DNA from: a virus
Length of the DNA stretch: 29,059 nt
Strand: one strand, 5' to 3'
Virus record (IMG/VR): IMGVR_UViG_3300005468_000582
Span: 1 to 29,059 of that record
Under the pieces are notes generated by a model. That model worked only from the letters and a program-made list of their open reading frames with translations, ran no database searches and was not told the origin of the DNA. A program made the position numbers and the translations under genes. This document shows, piece by piece, positions 15,952 through 24,809 of the stretch (position 1 is the stretch's first letter; every line of letters begins with the position of its first letter).

Positions 15952-16872
15952 TCAGGCGGTCAGGATCTCGCAGGCCGACCCGGGCTCCTGCACGATCGGC
16001 ACCGTCTTGCGGCGCCCCTGCAAGTCCCAGGCGTCGTTGCCGTCGAGGCGGATGCTCTTGATCTGCACCGCGAGCTGATCCATGGCGTACCCGGGGGCGT
16101 TGTCCATCTCGTCGGCCATGCCACCGAGCTGGGTGGAGTCGAGCACGTAGGGGTGCGCGGCCACCGACGAAGGCGACACCACGATGATCAGCCCCGCGAT
16201 GATCTCCAGCGTGCCGGTGTAGATCGGGTTGCTGGTGGTCTCACGGCGCAGCGCGTTGGTGATGGCCGTGTCGGACATCATGTAGGCGTAGTGGCTGTCG
16301 TCCACCAAGATGGTGTCCGGGTGGTAGCCCAGGTTCTTGCCGTACACGTGCGCCTTGGCCAGCAGGATGTCCTGGAAGATCGTCCGCGTGGCCGCGTTCG
16401 ACCAAACGGCCGTGGCGGTGGTGGTGTCGGTAACCGCCGACGCGATGGCCGACATGGCCTGACCGTCCACCTGCTGGATGATCGAGTTGACGACCTTGCG
16501 CATGTTGCGGTCCACCGTCTGGCCCGCATAGACGTTGCGGGCCACCTCCTCATCGGTGAGCCGCACCTTCTGGCCCCACTTGGACACGCTGGCGATGCCT
16601 GCGGTGCCGGTGGGCAGGTTGGCGAACGGGTACTCCGCACCCGGCCCCACCGCTTCCACGGTGCGGTCAGTAACGAAGGGCTCCGACAGCTCGTACAGCG
16701 CAGCGCCGCCGCTGGTGCGGAAACGCTGGGTGAGCAGTTGGTCCGCGACGAACCGGAGGTCGGTGTAGTCGCGCAGCCGCCGCCTGATCTGGGTAGGCGA
16801 CTGCAAGAACCGGGAGATGGTTTCCAGGTCACCGCTCAGTGTCGGTGGGGGAGCCGGGTAGCTACCTGGCAT
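15952..16872 (-). CDS. Major capsid protein (HK97 fold)
   Basis: This is a 306-aa protein from an ATG with AAGGAAG about 7 nt upstream. After a short N-terminus it has a helical arm (FLQSPTQIRRRLRDYTDLRF), an E-loop-like region (residues about 75-110, ending KWGQKVRLTDEEVARN), a long spine-like helix (RNMRKVVNSIIQQVDGQAM), and a P- and A-domain pattern typical of compact HK97-fold proteins (PDTILVDDSHYAYMM, TLEIIAGLIIVVSP, MDQLAVQIKSIRLD, QEPGSACEILTA). There is no long N-terminal scaffold (delta) domain, which fits with scaffold being supplied by the upstream protease gene. Length and gene order are as expected for an actinophage siphovirus. Confidence 0.9.
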   Translation of the reverse strand: MPGSYPAPPPTLSGDLETISRFLQSPTQIRRRLRDYTDLRFVADQLLTQRFRTSGGAALYELSEPFVTDRTVEAVGPGAEYPFANLPTGTAGIASVSKWGQKVRLTDEEVARNVYAGQTVDRNMRKVVNSIIQQVDGQAMSAIASAVTDTTTATAVWSNAATRTIFQDILLAKAHVYGKNLGYHPDTILVDDSHYAYMMSDTAITNALRRETTSNPIYTGTLEIIAGLIIVVSPSSVAAHPYVLDSTQLGGMADEMDNAPGYAMDQLAVQIKSIRLDGNDAWDLQGRRKTVPIVQEPGSACEILTA

Positions 16873-17788: not shown

Positions 17789-19678
17789 TCAGCCCTGCTG
17801 CCCGTCACGGCTGAAGATCGCCGTGCGGGTGTACTCGGGCGGGAACAGCCGGGCGTAATCCTCCTCCTCGGCCGCTGCGGTGGGGCCGCCAGCCTGGCCG
17901 ATGTCCTGGGTTGGGATCACGCCAGGCTGGAGGCCGGCGAGCACCAGTTCGGTGCCCTCGGGGTCAGCGTCGTAGACACGCTGCCAATGCGCCACCCGGG
18001 CCGCGCTGAACTTCCCGGCCTGCACCGCGCTGGCAATGGCCGAATCCCGGCGGGCCATCAACTGCTCTCGGCGGGCTTCCTCGCCCTTGCGGATGCGCGC
18101 CTGGGTGTCCTCCCACACGTCGGCGTCCACCACCTTGACGCCCGCTGGCAGCACGGTGCGCGCCCCAGCCGCCACCGGCTCCTTGTCCGCCTCGGCGGCC
18201 GGTGCCGCCTCGGCCGCCTTGGCGGCCATGGCCATGATGTGCTCGGCGGTGATTTCCTCGTCCTCGGCCAGCCCGAGCGCTGCGCGGATCTGGGCCTTCT
18301 GTGCGTCGCTGAGTTCCACGTCAGCGGCTCCCTTCCTACTTGGCCCCGCACTTGCGTGGGCGTGGTCGTGGACGCCATCACCCGCGTGGGTGTGGCTGTG
18401 GTCGTGGGTCTCGTCGCCGCCCTGGCTGCCCATGGCCGTGTGCTCGTGGCTGTGGGTGCCGGTGTAGGCCCCGTGGCTGCCAGCGTCCACCTCGTCAGCG
18501 CTGGCGGCGGCACCCGGGCCGCTGTAATCCGGGGGCTCTTGCCCCGCCGCGCGCAGGTGCTTGGCCATGTGGTTATACGCCTTGCGGGCGTCAGCCTCGC
18601 TGACACCCTTCAGGCCGCCGTGGGCGCCGTTGATGGCCCCGATGCCAGCCGAGCAGCCGTCAGGGTTGGCTGCGCCCACGCTGTGGCTGGTGGCGTCCAC
18701 GTCGTGGTGCGGCAGCTTGCTGTCTGACTTGGTGGCAGCGGGCAGCGCGAACATGGCCTTGATAGCCGAGGCGCTGGGGTCAGCGCCCATGTTGGCTATC
18801 TGGGTGGACGCCGACCAGGTGGCCTGCACCGGCACCGGCAAATCCAGGCCAGCCCGGCTGCTGTCAGCGGTGGCGAACGCCACCAGCGTGCCGTGCCGCG
18901 CCTGGGCCATGGCCTTGATGTCCTCGTACACCACCTCCACCGGCACGGCCTCAGCGAAGGTGACGGCGCCGCCCTTGATCGAGAACGGCACCCGGTACAC
19001 CTTGCCCTCGGCGTCATCGCACACGATCAGTTGCGGTGGGTCCATCTGGACCTCGGTGATCCACCGCGACATCGGGGCGGTGCTGTAGTACGCCTGCCGC
19101 ACGTCATCCACGGTGACGGCTGCGGCTGCGCTGGTGGGGTCGGGCATTGCTCCTCCAGGTGCTGTCTGCCAGGTGGCCGCCGCCGTACCGGCAGCCGCCG
19201 CCACCCCGTACAGGGCGGCCACGTCCTCAATGCCGCGCAGCACCCCCACCCCCGGCGGTGAGATGCCCAGGAGCGCCAGGCCGGTAATTACGAAGGGGTG
19301 CAGGTGCCCGATCTGGCATTGGAAGCCCCACGCGCCCTCTATCGACCGCTGGGGGTAGGCGGACTCCGCGATCACCGCCAGCCACCCGGGCATGCCCGCC
19401 AGGTCGCCGGTGATCTTGCTGCCCTCGGCGGCCAGGGCCAGGTTGCGCACCCGGCCGATGGCGGGCTGCCCGTCGCCGTTGAAACGCTTGTCGGTGTGGC
19501 CCAGCTTGATCACTGGGGCACCCACGGCCGGGCATTGCGCCGCATCCACCGCATCCGCCAGATCCTGGGTGGTGAACGTCGCCGGGCCGGTGGACAGATC
19601 CCATTCGCCAGCGGCCACCAGGTCCACGTTGGGCAGCGTGACCAGCGCGGGGACGGTCACCTGCTGCGCGGTTGTCAT
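17789..19678 (-). CDS. Capsid maturation protease/scaffold (Mu gpI-like) with His-rich tract
   Basis: This is a 629-aa protein. I chose the ATG sharing its A with the portal stop (TGATG), with a G-rich binding site; a TTG six codons upstream is less likely. Residues about 1-150 resemble the Mu gpI protease: PVIKLGHTDKRFNGDGQPAIGRVRNL, YPQRSIEGAWGF and TGLALLGISPPG features. A middle region of unknown fold (about 190-340) follows, then a NPDGCSAGIGAINGAHGG segment. A tract with eleven His lies at about 401-445 (THSHEH, THDHSHTH, VHDHAH). Next come an acidic helical scaffold-like part, and a typical gpI C-terminus (SAIASAVQAGKFSAARVAHW and ADPEGTELVLAGL). It should guide capsid assembly and then cleave itself and scaffold. 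The His tract is not a usual family feature and probably binds metal. Confidence 0.85.
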   Translation of the reverse strand: MTTAQQVTVPALVTLPNVDLVAAGEWDLSTGPATFTTQDLADAVDAAQCPAVGAPVIKLGHTDKRFNGDGQPAIGRVRNLALAAEGSKITGDLAGMPGWLAVIAESAYPQRSIEGAWGFQCQIGHLHPFVITGLALLGISPPGVGVLRGIEDVAALYGVAAAAGTAAATWQTAPGGAMPDPTSAAAAVTVDDVRQAYYSTAPMSRWITEVQMDPPQLIVCDDAEGKVYRVPFSIKGGAVTFAEAVPVEVVYEDIKAMAQARHGTLVAFATADSSRAGLDLPVPVQATWSASTQIANMGADPSASAIKAMFALPAATKSDSKLPHHDVDATSHSVGAANPDGCSAGIGAINGAHGGLKGVSEADARKAYNHMAKHLRAAGQEPPDYSGPGAAASADEVDAGSHGAYTGTHSHEHTAMGSQGGDETHDHSHTHAGDGVHDHAHASAGPSRKGAADVELSDAQKAQIRAALGLAEDEEITAEHIMAMAAKAAEAAPAAEADKEPVAAGARTVLPAGVKVVDADVWEDTQARIRKGEEARREQLMARRDSAIASAVQAGKFSAARVAHWQRVYDADPEGTELVLAGLQPGVIPTQDIGQAGGPTAAAEEEDYARLFPPEYTRTAIFSRDGQQG

Positions 19679-22011
19679 CAACCCCCACCGCCCCAAAAGC
19701 CCACGACGGTGCCACGGCAGCGCATGCCGCCCTCGCAGAACAGGTAGCCGCCGTTGGGGTAGGCGTCCTGCGCCTCGGCCAGGCTGGTGAACTCAAGGCC
19801 GTCTTCGTCCTGGCATGGCTTGCACGTGTTGTCGTCTTCGATTTCGCTGGCCAGGTAGGTGGCGTTAGCCGGGCCGGCCAGGAATGCGGCCATGCGGCCC
19901 ATGTTCTGCGCGGCGGTAAGCGCGGCACCAAGCTGGTCCGCCACTGGGTTCTCACTCAGTAGCGCCAGCCACCCCGCCAGGTCGTCGGCCGCATCCACCG
20001 CCTGCTGCGCTGGCGTCTTCGGCTCAGGGTGCTGCGCCGGGGGGCTTGCCGCGCGGACTTGCTGAAGGACACGGACCCCGGCGGCCTGGGCCAGCCTGGC
20101 CGCGATCAGTTGCGCCCGCGCGCTGGCCACTTTCTGCAACCGGGCCACCTGGATGGTCACCTGGTCCATGGGGATGGTGACGCCTTGGTGGGCGGCCTCG
20201 GTAGCCACCCGTAGCGCGCCCAGGTCGGCGGTCTGCTTCATCGCTGCGTAGATGACCGACTGGCCGTCGCTGGTGGGCACGCTCAGGCTGCCCAGCTTGC
20301 CCATCTGCCCGGCCTCGACAGCGGCCACCACCTGCTCCACCAGTTCCGCGCGCTGCGCCGACACCACCGGCCGGTACGCCACCACCAGCGCCTCACGGGC
20401 CAACAGCCACTCCTGCTGGTGCCCCGCCGGGTCAAACCCTGCGGCCACCTCACGCGGGGTTAGCTGCCGGTGGAATTGACCGGGCGGCGCCGCCGCCAGC
20501 GCACGGCCACGCCGCCCGGTGCGCGCACCGCGCCCACGGCGGGTAGCGGCCTGCTTGGTACCCGGGGCTGGCGGGCCGGCCGGCCCCGGGGGCTTGGCGG
20601 TGCCTGGCGCTGGCGCGGGCTGCACCAGCGGCGCTGGCGCGGGCAGCCCTTGCCCGGTGCCGGGCACTGGGCCGGCTGGCTCACCTGGCGCGGGTATGCC
20701 ACGGCTCATCGGCTCCCACGGTGTCTCCCGCTCAGGCAGCTTCCACGTGTCCCTGATCCAGCGGTCCAGCGCCGGGTCCGGCACCAGCGCACCAGCCTGG
20801 GTGAGGCGCCACAGCGCCTCGGCGGTGACCTCGTAGTTGGAGCCGATGTCGCCGCATACGATGCGCGGCGCGGGCTCGTCCTCGCCCCAGTTCTGATCCA
20901 CCAGGTCCGTGACGATGCCGGGCATGCCATCCTGGCCGCTGGTGGCGGTGTCGGCCAGGTCGTCGGCCTCGGCTTGAAGGCTGAGCAGGAACAGGTCTAG
21001 GAAACTCTCGCCCAGTGCCCTGCTGCCGTGCTCGGATTGGCCTAGCTCGATCAGCCCGGCCAGCGCCATCTTGGCTATAGATGCGTCCAGGTACTTCAAG
21101 AACGCCAGGGCGTCGGGCACGGTGCCGGTCAGCCCGGCCAGCTTGAAGGCGTACCCCTGCGGCAGCCCCACCCCCGACTGGTCCCCCACCCGCATAGCGG
21201 AGGCCAGTTGCTGCGCCTGGGCTACCTGGTTGGCGCTGCCTCCCGCCGGGGCCTCCACGGTGGGCACGCCCATGCCGAAACGGCGGATGGCGGTGGCGTG
21301 CACCCGCTGGGTCTCGTGCTTGAGCAGCCACGCGCCGAACGCGGGGCGCAGCATGCTGATGCCCGCCCAGTTGGCGCCTTCCTGCTGGTGGACGTACCAC
21401 ACCAGCCGGTTGGCGGGGATTGGCTCAATCTGGGTGGTCTGCACGATGTGGTTGATCGTGGAGTCCGGGTTGAGCATGATCTGCGCCAGCGTCCACGGCA
21501 TCCGCGCACCCAGATGGTCCAGGTGCACCCCGCCGGGCTCGGGCCGGTCGATGCGGTACCGCAGCTCAAACGGCATGTGCCCGTACACCAGCCGGTGGTA
21601 GGCCGCGTCCCGCAGGTGCCGCCGCCAGTTGATCCCGCGCCGCCGCGCCGGCCCGGGGTGCGGGTCGTCGCCCAAGATGGGCAGGCCGAGGTCATCGGCG
21701 CAGTGCTGCGCCACCTCATCGCTGCACCCCTCGGGGTCCAGCCACCACTGCGCCCGCAAGATCGGCAGCAGGTAGGAGTACAGCACCGCGCGGATCTGGG
21801 TGTCTTGCCGCATCCGCCCGTAGGTGATCACCGACTGCGGCCAGATCAGGTCGGCGGTGGTCTCCCACCAGTCGGTCAGCAGCCCCTGGCCGAAGGTGCC
21901 CCAGTACAGGTCGGTGTTGCCAATGTCACGGGTGGGGGGGCTGCCCGGCAGCCCGTTGTGGATGTTTGTGGCGGCGCGGAAGGTGCCTGCGGGCTGAAGC
22001 GCTGCCACCAT
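19678..22011 (-). CDS. Portal protein fused to MuF-like minor head protein
   Basis: This is a 777-aa fusion. Residues about 1-430 resemble Mu gp29-type (DUF935) portals: a WPQSVITYGRMRQDTQIRAVL opening region, an RHLRDAAYHRLVYGHMPFEL helix, ANRLVWYVHQQEGANWAG, and FLKYLDASIAKMALAGLIELGQ. Residues about 435-510 are a Pro/Ala/Gly-rich, Arg-tailed linker. Residues about 510-777 match the MuF (gp7/SPP1-type) minor head domain, ending in the signature DDNTCKPCQDEDG (near 725), YPNGGYLFCEGGMRCRG and VVGFW; its four Cys may bind metal. The portal ring is the DNA gateway and head-tail junction, and MuF proteins ride on or inside it. Separate genes are commoner, so the fusion is notable. The ATG at 22011 has only a weak, distant binding site (AGGGGAA). 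The stop overlaps the protease start (TGATG). Confidence 0.9.
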   Translation of the reverse strand: MVAALQPAGTFRAATNIHNGLPGSPPTRDIGNTDLYWGTFGQGLLTDWWETTADLIWPQSVITYGRMRQDTQIRAVLYSYLLPILRAQWWLDPEGCSDEVAQHCADDLGLPILGDDPHPGPARRRGINWRRHLRDAAYHRLVYGHMPFELRYRIDRPEPGGVHLDHLGARMPWTLAQIMLNPDSTINHIVQTTQIEPIPANRLVWYVHQQEGANWAGISMLRPAFGAWLLKHETQRVHATAIRRFGMGVPTVEAPAGGSANQVAQAQQLASAMRVGDQSGVGLPQGYAFKLAGLTGTVPDALAFLKYLDASIAKMALAGLIELGQSEHGSRALGESFLDLFLLSLQAEADDLADTATSGQDGMPGIVTDLVDQNWGEDEPAPRIVCGDIGSNYEVTAEALWRLTQAGALVPDPALDRWIRDTWKLPERETPWEPMSRGIPAPGEPAGPVPGTGQGLPAPAPLVQPAPAPGTAKPPGPAGPPAPGTKQAATRRGRGARTGRRGRALAAAPPGQFHRQLTPREVAAGFDPAGHQQEWLLAREALVVAYRPVVSAQRAELVEQVVAAVEAGQMGKLGSLSVPTSDGQSVIYAAMKQTADLGALRVATEAAHQGVTIPMDQVTIQVARLQKVASARAQLIAARLAQAAGVRVLQQVRAASPPAQHPEPKTPAQQAVDAADDLAGWLALLSENPVADQLGAALTAAQNMGRMAAFLAGPANATYLASEIEDDNTCKPCQDEDGLEFTSLAEAQDAYPNGGYLFCEGGMRCRGTVVGFWGGGG

Positions 22012-22151
22012 GGCCTTGCCGGGTTCCCCTCAGATGTGCCGGTCAGCGGCCAGCCGCCCGAGGGGCGGTTCCATGGTGGCCTTATGGCGGGCAGCATACA
22101 CTCCCGTGCCCGCTGGCGGGGGGCAGGTTGCTGCTGGGCGCGGCGCAGGCA

Positions 22152-22194
22152 ACGGCCCCGCCCGGCGGCATGGGGGACCTGAGGGCGGGGCCGT
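22152..22194 (-). terminator. Strong GC-rich hairpin, candidate terminator or attenuator
   Basis: A perfect 12-bp inverted repeat (acggccccgccc and gggcggggccgt) is separated by 19 nt. It lies after the DUF397 gene and about 140 bp before the portal start, in the transcribed strand. No U-tract follows, so it is not a textbook intrinsic terminator. Actinobacterial terminators often lack one, so partial termination or RNA processing between packaging and head genes is possible. Confidence 0.5.
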
Positions 22195-22204
22195 CACCGG
22201 GGGC

Positions 22205-22229
22205 CGGCAAGGACGGGGCGGCCTTGCCG
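22205..22229 (-). other. 8-bp inverted repeat with 9-nt loop
   Basis: The arms cggcaagg (22205-22212) and ccttgccg (22222-22229) are perfectly complementary. The repeat sits 10 bp from the 12-bp hairpin, so the two could stack as tandem stem-loops in the transcript. Confidence 0.45.
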
Positions 22230-22245
22230 TGCACAACCGTGCCTG

Positions 22246-22271
22246 TGTGCCCGGGGCGCCGCCGGGGCACA
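22246..22271 (-). other. 7-bp inverted repeat
   Basis: The arms tgtgccc (22246-22252) and gggcaca (22265-22271) flank a GC-rich 12-nt loop. Alone it is weak in GC-rich DNA. It counts mainly because it is the third inverted repeat within 120 bp of an otherwise empty interval. Confidence 0.35.
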
Positions 22272-22358
22272 GTCCGCTTGGGCAGCCATACCGTGCCTGC
22301 CGTGTGGCGGGCACCCCGGGCCTTGGGCCACCAGCTAATCACAGCCGGTGGCGGTGGT

Positions 22359-22562
22359 CTACCGGCCTTGCTCGGTGTACAGGCCCGGCGGGGTGCGCCT
22401 GCTGCCATCCCACTGGGCGGGGCTGAAGATCAGGGGCGGGGCGCTGGGGTCTTCAGTGTCGCGCACCAGCCACCACTCGTCGTACGGGTCTTGGGCGACT
22501 TCCACACGGTGGCCGCTGCCGCTAAGACGGTAGGGTGACGGCCGCCACTGCGGCTGATCCAT
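22359..22562 (-). CDS. DUF397-like small protein
   Basis: This is a 67-aa protein from an ATG with AGGGGGG 5-11 nt upstream, starting inside the 3' end of the preceding membrane-protein gene. The sequence follows the DUF397 pattern: a Trp-x-Pro-Ser-x-Tyr opening (WRPSPYR), then VEVA, then VRDTEDP, then PLIFSPAQW. The usual motif in Streptomyces proteins is a W-x-x-S-x-Y start, C-VEVA, VRDSKDP and a F-T-P-x-x-W end. The customary Cys before VEVA is Arg here. In actinomycetes such proteins are normally encoded beside XRE/WhiJ-type regulators and form regulator or antitoxin-like pairs. Here no regulator is adjacent, so it is an orphan inside a virion operon. A phage-encoded mimic acting on a host pair is my inference. 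Confidence 0.75.
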   Translation of the reverse strand: MDQPQWRPSPYRLSGSGHRVEVAQDPYDEWWLVRDTEDPSAPPLIFSPAQWDGSRRTPPGLYTEQGR

Positions 22563-22680
22563 TAGTCCCCCCTGATGGGCCGGCGTGGTGATACATGTCG
22601 GTCCCGATGATCAGGCCAATAACCAGCACCAGCCCGCCTGCGGCGGCGGCAGCCAGCTTGGCCAGGTTCTTGATGCCCAT
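22522..22680 (-). CDS. 52-aa single-helix membrane protein
   Basis: The ATG at 22680 has an almost perfect ribosome binding site (GGAGGTGA) 6-7 nt upstream and lies 27 bp after the terL stop. It reads MGIKNLAKLAAAAAGG, then LVLVIGLIIG, then TDMYHHAGPSGGTNG and a short tail ending in TLPS and TAG at 22522. A Lys-bearing N-terminus, one hydrophobic helix (residues about 10-26) and a short polar tail fit a small inner-membrane protein. The orientation is uncertain. It overlaps the next gene by 41 bp. A role as holin-like protein, superinfection-exclusion factor or membrane anchor for its neighbour is possible, but none is shown. Confidence 0.75.
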   Translation of the reverse strand: MGIKNLAKLAAAAAGGLVLVIGLIIGTDMYHHAGPSGGTNGSAAVAAVTLPS

Positions 22681-22707
22681 ACCAGGTCACCTCCACGGCC
22701 AGCGTAA

Positions 22708-24339
22708 CTAGCCCAGCGGGGTATTCATCAAGTCCAGCTCGTGGCTTCCGTTGCCGGTGGCCGCGCGGTGTGCCGCCATTATCGCCTGCTCCGCAGCGCT
22801 GGGCCTTGGCGTGGCGGGGGGCTGGCGGCGCTGCGGCGACACCCACTCATGTGAGCGCACCCGGGCGGCGTAGCTGAAGGTATCCACCTGGTCATCGTTG
22901 GTACCCCGGGGGAACGCTGCCAGCTCATCCAGCCACTCATCCAGCCACACCCCGCCCAGGCAGTTGCCGCACGGGCACCCGGCGGTCTCGGCGGGGAACC
23001 ACACCTTGCCCGCCTGGCATTGCCCCGCCGCCGGCTCGGCGCGGGTCACCTTGTCGGTGTCCGCGACCAGCGGCACCACCGGCACGCCGGCGTCCCGGGC
23101 ATCTTGCACCACGGTGGTGGACCACCACGACTGCTCCACATACAAGATGTCGAAGCCCCACCGGTTGGCCAGGCTCTCCACCATGCCGAAATGGTCGTGG
23201 TCGGCTATGCGGTTGCGCCACCGGTCCAGCAGCACCAGCACGCCCTCCACGGTGATGGCCCACACCGCCACCACGGTAAAGTCCGCCCCGGTCTTGGTGC
23301 TAGCGGCCACGTCCATGGTGGCGAACCGCCACGTATCAGCCATGGTGACAATGCGGCCCTCGCACTCGATGCGCTGCCGCCCGTCGTTCCACGGGGTAGT
23401 TGGCCGCCAGTAGCGGAAGGTGGGCCGGCGGAAGAAGTTGCCCTCGGCGGCGGTGGGGGTCTGCTGGTAAACCCCCGCGAATACGTACTGGCTCATGCCC
23501 GCTTGGAGGTTGTGGAAGTATCCCGGTTCGCGGCCCCGCACACTGGGCAGCTCTTGCCCGGGTGCGCGGCCCAGCGGGTCACTATCCCCCGCGATGGCGG
23601 GGATTACCAGTTGCCGCCACCGCAGCGGCCCGGGGCGGGAGAAGATCCTGCCCGCCAGGTCGTCCTCGTGCCACCGGGTTTGGATCAGCACCACGCGCGC
23701 GCCGGGGGCCAGCCGGGTCAGCGCCACCGATTCCCACCAGTCCCAGGCCGCGTTGCGCAGCTTCTCACTCTCAGCGGCGGCCCGGTCTTTCACCGGGTCA
23801 TCCACGATCAGCACATCCACCGGCCTGCCGGTAAGAGCGCCGCCGATGCCGACGCAGTACACGCCGCCGCCGGCCGGGGTTTCCCACCGGGAGGCGGCCA
23901 TGCTGTCGCGGCGCACGTCAATGTGCAGCTTGGCGCAGCCGCCGTCACACACCTGCCCGGCCTTGGCCACCCCGCAGGTTTCCTGCCGGATGTCCTGCTT
24001 GATGTCGCGGCCCCACCGGGTGGCCAGGTCCATCTCGTAGGACACAATGGCCACCCGCAGCGCCGGGTTGTGATCCAGCAGCCACTCCACGAACCGGCGG
24101 GACACCCGCTGGGACTTGCCTTCCTGGGGTGGCATGAACACCGCCAGGGCGTTCTCCGGGGAGTCCTCGGCCATCAGCCCCACCAGCGCCTCATCCACCA
24201 GTTTCAGCGCGGGGCTGTCACCGGTAGTGATGTCCAGTGCTTGCGCCAAGGCACCGGGCGTTGGGTACCGGCGGGGCTGGGTCTCCCACTGCCGTGCCGC
24301 CCACTCCTGCCACGGCACCACCGCCGACCGCATGGTCAT
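22708..24339 (-). CDS. terL: Terminase large subunit (ATPase plus nuclease)
   Basis: This 543-aa DNA-packaging motor pumps phage DNA through the portal and cuts it. The ATPase domain shows a Walker A-like PPQEGKSQ (residues 70-77, Lys75), Walker B VLIVDD (176-181), and the coupling motif IQTRWHEDD (219-227). The RNase H-like nuclease domain shows TMDVAASTKTGADF (Asp343), LYVEQS (Glu402) and NDDQVD (481-486), giving the expected acidic triad. Two Cys clusters are unusual: C122, C131, C135 in the ATPase domain, and C441, C455, C457, C460 near the C-terminus. These could bind zinc. The ATG at 24339 overlaps the previous stop; a second ATG lies two codons in. Length is normal for the family. Confidence 0.95.
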   Translation of the reverse strand: MTMRSAVVPWQEWAARQWETQPRRYPTPGALAQALDITTGDSPALKLVDEALVGLMAEDSPENALAVFMPPQEGKSQRVSRRFVEWLLDHNPALRVAIVSYEMDLATRWGRDIKQDIRQETCGVAKAGQVCDGGCAKLHIDVRRDSMAASRWETPAGGGVYCVGIGGALTGRPVDVLIVDDPVKDRAAAESEKLRNAAWDWWESVALTRLAPGARVVLIQTRWHEDDLAGRIFSRPGPLRWRQLVIPAIAGDSDPLGRAPGQELPSVRGREPGYFHNLQAGMSQYVFAGVYQQTPTAAEGNFFRRPTFRYWRPTTPWNDGRQRIECEGRIVTMADTWRFATMDVAASTKTGADFTVVAVWAITVEGVLVLLDRWRNRIADHDHFGMVESLANRWGFDILYVEQSWWSTTVVQDARDAGVPVVPLVADTDKVTRAEPAAGQCQAGKVWFPAETAGCPCGNCLGGVWLDEWLDELAAFPRGTNDDQVDTFSYAARVRSHEWVSPQRRQPPATPRPSAAEQAIMAAHRAATGNGSHELDLMNTPLG

Positions 24340-24809
24340 GTGCCGCTGCGGCCCGTGCCATCGTCATCCACTACGCCACGAAACGACGTGCGCCGGTCAA
24401 GGCCAGTGGCTACCTCGGTGATCATGTACGGGTCGTTACCCGGGCCGTGCAGCGGGGCGTAGGGCTTGACCACGTGTTCGCTGCCGGGGCTGTCATGGAT
24501 GGTGAAGAACTCCATGGCCTCGTGCTGCTCGACCAGTAGGCACTGTTGGAACAGCCACCACTGCCACGAGCGGTGGTTGTAGCTGGCCGGGGGCACCTGC
24601 ATGTAATGCGCTACCCGCATGCGCTGGTGCGGCGGGTAGCTGTTGACGGTGGTGACGGTGATTACCAGGGTGAGGCCGGCGCTGCCCTGCCCCCGGTCGG
24701 TTTCCACCAGCTTGAAGGCCCAGCCGTCGCGGTAGCTTAGCCGCTCCACCAGGTAGGCCAGTGCCACCGGGTACGGCGCCTCTTGGTGCATGGTGCCGCT
24801 GTCTTTCAT
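24336..24809 (-). CDS. Unknown 157-aa protein immediately upstream of terminase
   Basis: This is a 157-aa protein whose ATG overlaps the upstream stop and whose stop overlaps the terminase start (ATGA at both ends), so it is tightly coupled to terL. Residues about 44-75 form beta strands (LTLVITVTTVNSYP, RMRVAHYMQVPP). These are followed by an aromatic helix (SWQWWLFQQCLLVEQHEAMEFF) and a loop reading YAPLHGPGNDPY. I see no helix-turn-helix, so it is not an obvious small terminase subunit, although that is the usual gene in this position. The absence of any other candidate keeps that option open. I do not recognise the family. Confidence 0.75.
   Translation of the reverse strand: MKDSGTMHQEAPYPVALAYLVERLSYRDGWAFKLVETDRGQGSAGLTLVITVTTVNSYPPHQRMRVAHYMQVPPASYNHRSWQWWLFQQCLLVEQHEAMEFFTIHDSPGSEHVVKPYAPLHGPGNDPYMITEVATGLDRRTSFRGVVDDDGTGRSGT

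Follow-up and report, generated by a model that had tools for sequence, protein, structure and literature searches.

Actinomycete viruses recurrently carry DUF397 genes without the XRE regulator that almost always accompanies DUF397 in their hosts, and here we describe a divergent example that sits as optional cargo between the terminase large subunit (terL) and portal genes of a phage that probably infects soil actinomycetes. The window analysed, a 29-kb virus record, is a Caudoviricetes fragment with a minus-strand head operon (Table 1). Two small genes lie between terL and portal, one for a 52-aa membrane protein and one for the 67-aa DUF397 protein, and their reading frames share 41 nt, the 3′ end of the former overlapping the start of the latter; ORF calls agree with the initial annotation on the coordinates, strand and placement of both. 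The DUF397 gene runs in the same direction as terL, portal, protease and major head protein.

Table 1. Features of the window and the shared upstream motif of other phage DUF397 genes
Feature	Position	Strand	Description and basis
DUF397-like gene	22359..22562	-	67 aa, divergent DUF397 (BldB-family), without XRE/DUF5753 partner; PF04149, phrog_10815, L003 homologue
52-aa one-helix membrane protein gene	22522..22680	-	ORF, hydrophobic segment, L003 homologue
Shine-Dalgarno GGAGGTGA of 52-aa gene	22687..22694	-	Sequence; near-perfect
GGGGGG run 5′ of DUF397 start	22567..22572	-	Sequence; moderate ribosome binding site
11-bp hairpin directly after DUF397 stop, without U-tract	22327..22352	-	RNA fold; terminator scan negative
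Structured non-coding gap 5′ of portal	22012..22358	-	Alignment of window, L003, L012 and L004; fold z -2.3
Terminase large subunit (terL)	22708..24339	-	phrog_38 E 4e-84; PF17289 and PF03237
Portal, Mu-type	19678..22011	-	PF06074 E 9e-40; phrog_113 E 2e-59
Head maturation protease	17789-19696	-	Head operon
Major head protein	15952-16872	-	Head operon
phrog_1540 protein, mobile neighbour	24336..24809	-	phrog_1540 E 2e-15
CTTGACTKGAGTMTAG upstream of antisense DUF397			L286, L293-L296, L299, L302, L303, L310, L259

A divergent DUF397 protein in a phage head operon

The 67-aa protein matched PF04149 (DUF397) with an E value of 2.8e-9; its 37.5 bits exceed the gathering score of 24, and the alignment pairs residues 5-52 with positions 2-48 of the 55-position model. 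It also matched phrog_10815 (E 2e-7). The homologue in the related contig L003 likewise scored above the PF04149 cut-off. DUF397 homology had been proposed from four motifs (WRPSPYR, VEVA, VRDTEDP and FSPAQW), all of which are present, and the proposal was borne out by the profile search that had been named as its check.

Despite this score, two hallmarks of the family have eroded. The CxE motif of strand 2, which is conserved in DUF397 (PMC7159879), reads RVE in the window and AAE in L003: the Glu is retained, and the Cys, invariant in our sample of 70 host domains gathered by similarity searches, is replaced by Arg and Ala, respectively. At the end of strand 3, where RDS is followed by K/R in hosts (Ser in 99% and K/R in 98% of the same 70 domains), the window has RDTE and L003 has RDAE, with R-D retained; RDT is also seen in some phage DUF397 copies. 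The C-terminal helix of the window copy is without the conserved Phe/Leu and Lys. Because the CxE and RDS features fail despite the profile score, we classify the protein, by profile, as a divergent DUF397 protein outside the XRE-DUF397 pairs.

An AlphaFold2 model of the window protein (pLDDT 78, pTM 0.60) placed strands at residues 20-24, 31-35 and 44-46, followed by a two-residue bridge and a helix at 48-55; in the model of a canonical phage DUF397 (pLDDT 88, pTM 0.71) the helix spans 47-58. The best VIA-align match of both was MoSub1 (canonical copy, Z 5.6, rmsd 3.7, 60 aligned; window copy, Z 5.0, rmsd 4.9, 60 aligned), with PUR-alpha and PC4 near it, all of these matches falling below the trustworthy level. 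The comparison tentatively suggests a PC4-like fold (PC4/Whirly/PUR-alpha-like). Foldseek returned no match with E < 0.001 against the PDB and viral models, and a sequence search found no solved DUF397 structure.

Comparison of the window with L003 by counting synonymous and non-synonymous changes gave a dN/dS of 0.34 for the DUF397 gene (0.35 outside the overlap) against 0.12 for terL and portal, so that by this count the gene is constrained yet fast-evolving. The 52-aa protein, which consists of one hydrophobic helix, matched no Pfam, PHROG or PADLOC family, and a close-relative search found only the copy in L002. Its L003 homologue, at 44-52% identity, keeps the same overlapping arrangement and start sites; between these two sequences its gene has a dN/dS of ~1, with no detectable purifying selection. 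A separate search for a recent host donor of the DUF397 gene yielded none, the best host match among 299 genomes having 47% identity (E 6.5e-8).

Expression signals around the cassette were mixed. Very strong ribosome binding sites had been ascribed to both genes, a description that fits the 52-aa gene but not the DUF397 gene, and of the hairpins reported earlier, the one after the DUF397 stop is strong but offers no terminator-like U-tract. A scan limited to sigma70-type promoters and intrinsic terminators found neither in the window and gave no sign of a separate promoter for the DUF397 gene; Rfam also had no match in the window. Upstream of portal, the 347-nt gap has a fold slightly more stable than those of its shuffles and is partly conserved in relatives without the cassette. 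Within it, AAGGCCACCATGG lies ~70 nt before the portal start (window 22012-22100) and is conserved in the window, L003, L004 and L012, and the portal start itself lies within a near-inverted copy; the pair is possibly a translational control element.

The cassette occupies a variable cargo site

A survey of related phages, which the initial annotation had proposed, was carried out by scanning IMG/VR with terL (26 contigs) and with portal (16 more), giving 42 contigs in total. The cassette lies between terL and portal in two of these, L002, which is identical to the window, and L003, and the same two hold the only close viral relatives of the window DUF397. L003 shares 95% identity with the window in terL and 94% in portal, and 65% in DUF397. 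The next nearest relatives, L004 (terL 86%) and L012 (terL 79%), are without the cassette: the slot in L012 is a non-coding gap alone, and that in L004 contains other DNA, including a small one-helix protein gene on the opposite strand.

Contrary to the premise that terL and portal are normally adjacent, the distance between them in this lineage ranges from an overlap to ~3 kb, often with phrog_1540 inside (as in L005, L006 and L009). Since its contents differ among relatives — the cassette, a gap alone, other DNA or phrog_1540 — the slot is a variable cargo site, and since the cassette occurs in so few of the contigs and is missing from two close relatives, it is optional cargo. The moron-like character attributed to it, an optional gene at one site, is upheld in this respect, with the window, L002 and L003 on one side and L004 and L012 on the other.

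Two further observations concern the same genes. phrog_1540 shifts its position around terL and portal among relatives and is also found near antisense DUF397 genes of other phages (below). In L025 (3310-5346), the terL frame contains an insert of ~150 aa (CMTGDTPV... to ...ASHN) that looks intein-like by eye.

Partnerless DUF397 genes recur across viruses

A scan of IMG/VR with a three-sequence alignment of canonical DUF397 (a ten-sequence alignment proved too diverse) found DUF397 in at least 125 contigs, and from these 125 relatives 80 loci were kept. Partners were called, within 1.5 kb of DUF397, by an XRE profile derived from known ones. Among non-redundant viral DUF397s, 33 were without an XRE gene (the window and L003 counted among them), 34 were with one and 8 lay at contig ends; L209, in which a weak XRE match overlaps the DUF397 gene, was excluded and does not figure among the partnerless copies. 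In hosts, an XRE gene lay within 1.5 kb in 58 of 60 loci. The comparison of 33 partnerless to 34 paired copies in viruses with 2 to 55 in hosts is highly significant (Fisher p 3.8e-9), the host loci being the best-scoring or most similar ones, so that host copies as a whole may depart from this figure.

Of 34 partnerless virus records, 32 contained no PF19054 (DUF5753), among them some longer than 100 kb; all 7 paired controls contained it. Virus records are fragments, and a partner could lie outside them. The records of L002 (34 kb) and L003 (24 kb) contained neither PF19054/DUF5753 nor an adjacent XRE gene, in keeping with the earlier description of the window gene as an orphan. In a single short-domain tree, ~20 partnerless phage copies ('WVKSSLSFANGNCVEV...') formed a group without host or paired members, and the window and L003 stood on a separate long branch.

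Phage-encoded DUF397 is also found in temperate actinophages (Ididsumtinwong, Picard, Success, Samy and Saccharomonospora phage PIS 136), and the Samy copy is annotated as phrog_10815, the family matched by the window protein. These cultured phages differ from the window in that all five keep an XRE/HTH gene immediately upstream, with DUF5753 in the three regulators checked, and in that most of their copies lie near integrase or lysis genes rather than in the head operon. Phage DUF397 with a partner is therefore already represented in databases; what is new is partnerless DUF397 as recurrent phage cargo. By title and abstract, none of the 25 papers found to mention DUF397 has the phage-encoded protein as its subject.

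Other partnerless copies occupy distinctive positions. In four contigs (L199, L200, L217 and L220), DUF397 is antisense and adjoins head genes (head maturation protease and head decoration in L200), and phrog_1540 is common to these four and the window at 44-54%; in L193 the gene, again antisense, separates major head protein from head-tail adaptor. Five others (L195, L197, L206, L218 and L225) carry a partnerless DUF397 in or beside tRNA arrays of 18-37 tRNA genes. More broadly, DUF397 genes are within or border tRNA arrays in L195, L197, L206, L209, L216, L218 and L225 (around 5000), ARAGORN calling 18-37 tRNAs in six of the loci and the upstream tRNA-like sequence of L216 being recognised by eye only.

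A promoter-like motif, CTTGACTKGAGTMTAG, stands upstream of the antisense group. It occurs exactly at just 26 places in all of IMG/VR: at 10 of these it stands before a DUF397 gene, in 9 cases no more than 100 bp away, and at 4 before a 38-46-aa peptide; for those phages, the antisense DUF397 genes behind CTTGACTKGAGTMTAG have a moron architecture. The motif is absent from the window with up to 3 mismatches. The peptides behind it in L287, L290, L292 and L304 (SFANG...GKP..VAASE...FAS) have no Pfam match, and one CTTGACTKGAGTMTAG-associated peptide ends in TPPGLYAS, a near match to the TPPGLYTE with which the window DUF397 protein ends.

A likely mycelial host

The host of the window phage would, on its nearest cellular terL homologues (Nonomuraea, 51%; a Jatrophihabitans MAG, 50%; two Actinomadura and Streptosporangium canum, 48% each), probably be an actinomycete; they point to a mycelial one that cannot be named at ~50% terL identity. 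DUF397 matches number 41 and 54 in the two Actinomadura genomes, 32 in Streptosporangium, 3 in Nonomuraea and 0 in the Jatrophihabitans MAG. The 32-54 DUF397 domains per genome of Actinomadura and Streptosporangium are potential targets of a phage copy.

A trans-acting model and its rivals

We put at roughly 45% the probability that the optional cargo encodes a divergent DUF397 protein which, standing alone, targets the host DUF397/XRE-DUF5753 network of BldB/WhiJ type in trans. Action on a host partner is suggested because about half of classifiable phage DUF397s are without one of their own, whereas host copies are almost always paired: a phage DUF397 that brings no regulator of its own has to act on something else, for which the DUF397/DUF5753 network of the host is the most evident candidate. 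In Streptomyces coelicolor, XRE/DUF397 pairs are regulators (PMC10364602; PMC6262351). The window protein resembles such pairs (WhiJ/BldB paralogues, Scr1/Scr2) in its DUF397 profile, similar size and actinomycete setting, but its record contains no XRE-DUF5753 gene, the Cys, RDS-K and C-terminal helix residues are lost, and it lies in a phage head operon with a membrane peptide adjoining.

The window protein would presumably work like a stand-alone DUF397. BldB, the canonical one in Streptomyces, has no adjacent whiJ and acts in trans through hetero-oligomers with its paralogues; no DNA binding by it was seen in vivo, and its loss gives a bald phenotype with aerial growth blocked and iosA and abaA induced (PMC10294661). 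The window copy differs from BldB in being phage-borne and in being without residues conserved in host DUF397s. Co-orientation with the head operon suggests that it would be expressed with the late genes. Its product could then join host DUF397 oligomers, as the hetero-oligomerisation of BldB would allow (PMC10294661), or fill the DUF397 site of a host DUF5753 regulator. The resulting complex may be inactive for want of the conserved Cys and a full C-terminal helix, a dominant-negative idea that we infer purely from the lost residues. Such a complex would shift the host switch, most plausibly keeping the cell vegetative and phage-permissive (PMC10117723, PMC10294661); in Streptomyces, phage infection is contained by development, and plaques on a mutant confined to vegetative growth are large and clear (PMC10117723).

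Several points weigh against a trans-acting role: the cassette is present in only 2 of 42 related contigs, late co-expression with the head operon is odd for early host reprogramming, and the window copy, as the most divergent one, without the signature Cys and helix residues, may have lost binding of the usual DUF397 targets. The same rarity favours the main rival, that the variable slot took up a host DUF397 gene, now drifting as passenger DNA with no present function. Its long branch, the loss of residues invariant in 70 host domains, an identity to L003 far below that of the flanking genes (94-95%) and the apparently unconstrained membrane gene all agree with this. We nevertheless consider it unlikely, for the DUF397 frame is intact in both viruses at a dN/dS of 0.34, the overlap and start sites are retained in L003, and unrelated phages also have partnerless DUF397 genes, with a promoter-like motif that is conserved. 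A virion role in packaging, scaffolding or portal assembly would account for the co-direction with the head genes and is very improbable, given that the same head genes come without the cassette in 40 of the 42 related contigs and that DUF397 runs antisense to head genes in other phages.

Two further alternatives concern host defence and the membrane neighbour. The DUF397 protein might disturb VMAP-ternary conflict systems, in which DUF397 proteins are co-effectors, or defence loci controlled by DUF5753-XRE regulators: HTH-partnerless DUF397 genes accompany ~4% of VMAP-ternary systems (PMC7159879), although those copies are chromosomal, multi-copy and linked to large NTPase systems, and both the faster divergence relative to virion genes and the cargo position suit a counter-defence gene. 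We hold this to be rather improbable, because no window protein has a PADLOC match, no such system is tied to the host, and a late-operon position is unsuited to early counter-defence. It is likewise improbable, and a little more so, that the 52-aa protein is the effector — a toxin, superinfection-exclusion or lysis-timing peptide — with DUF397 as its partner. The overlapping and probably translationally coupled genes are kept together in L003, the membrane gene has its near-perfect Shine-Dalgarno, and L004 has another small one-helix protein in the slot, on the opposite strand; yet purifying selection on the membrane protein is not detectable, it has no family match, and no membrane neighbour clearly recurs at other partnerless phage DUF397s. 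Joint action with the membrane neighbour therefore finds no support, and an antitoxin-like role is unlikely since 14 XRE/DUF397 pairs tested in S. coelicolor showed no toxin-antitoxin behaviour (PMC10364602). What endures of the earlier reading is the DUF397 homology, the missing partner and the optional cargo; the defence switch and the membrane partner found no support.

Discussion

A trans-acting phage DUF397 would have a conceptual parallel in the WhiB-like regulators of actinobacteriophages (discussed in PMC10117723), which belong to an unrelated family but are also phage homologues of a host developmental regulator and, if our preferred explanation is true, would follow a similar strategy. 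A bolder version, that viruses of differentiating actinomycetes widely carry stand-alone BldB-type decoys which enter host BldB/DUF397 oligomers and keep the mycelium vegetative and phage-permissive, with the window copy, without its Cys and full helix, as the dominant-negative extreme, strikes us as doubtful.

Collectively, few paralogous families of actinomycetes are as large as DUF397, of which a single genome can hold up to 94 copies (PMC10294661), and the partnerless phage copies are natural single-component probes of DUF397 alone. They link the BldB/WhiJ network to phage infection, and through them actinomycete viruses may tamper with a host switch.
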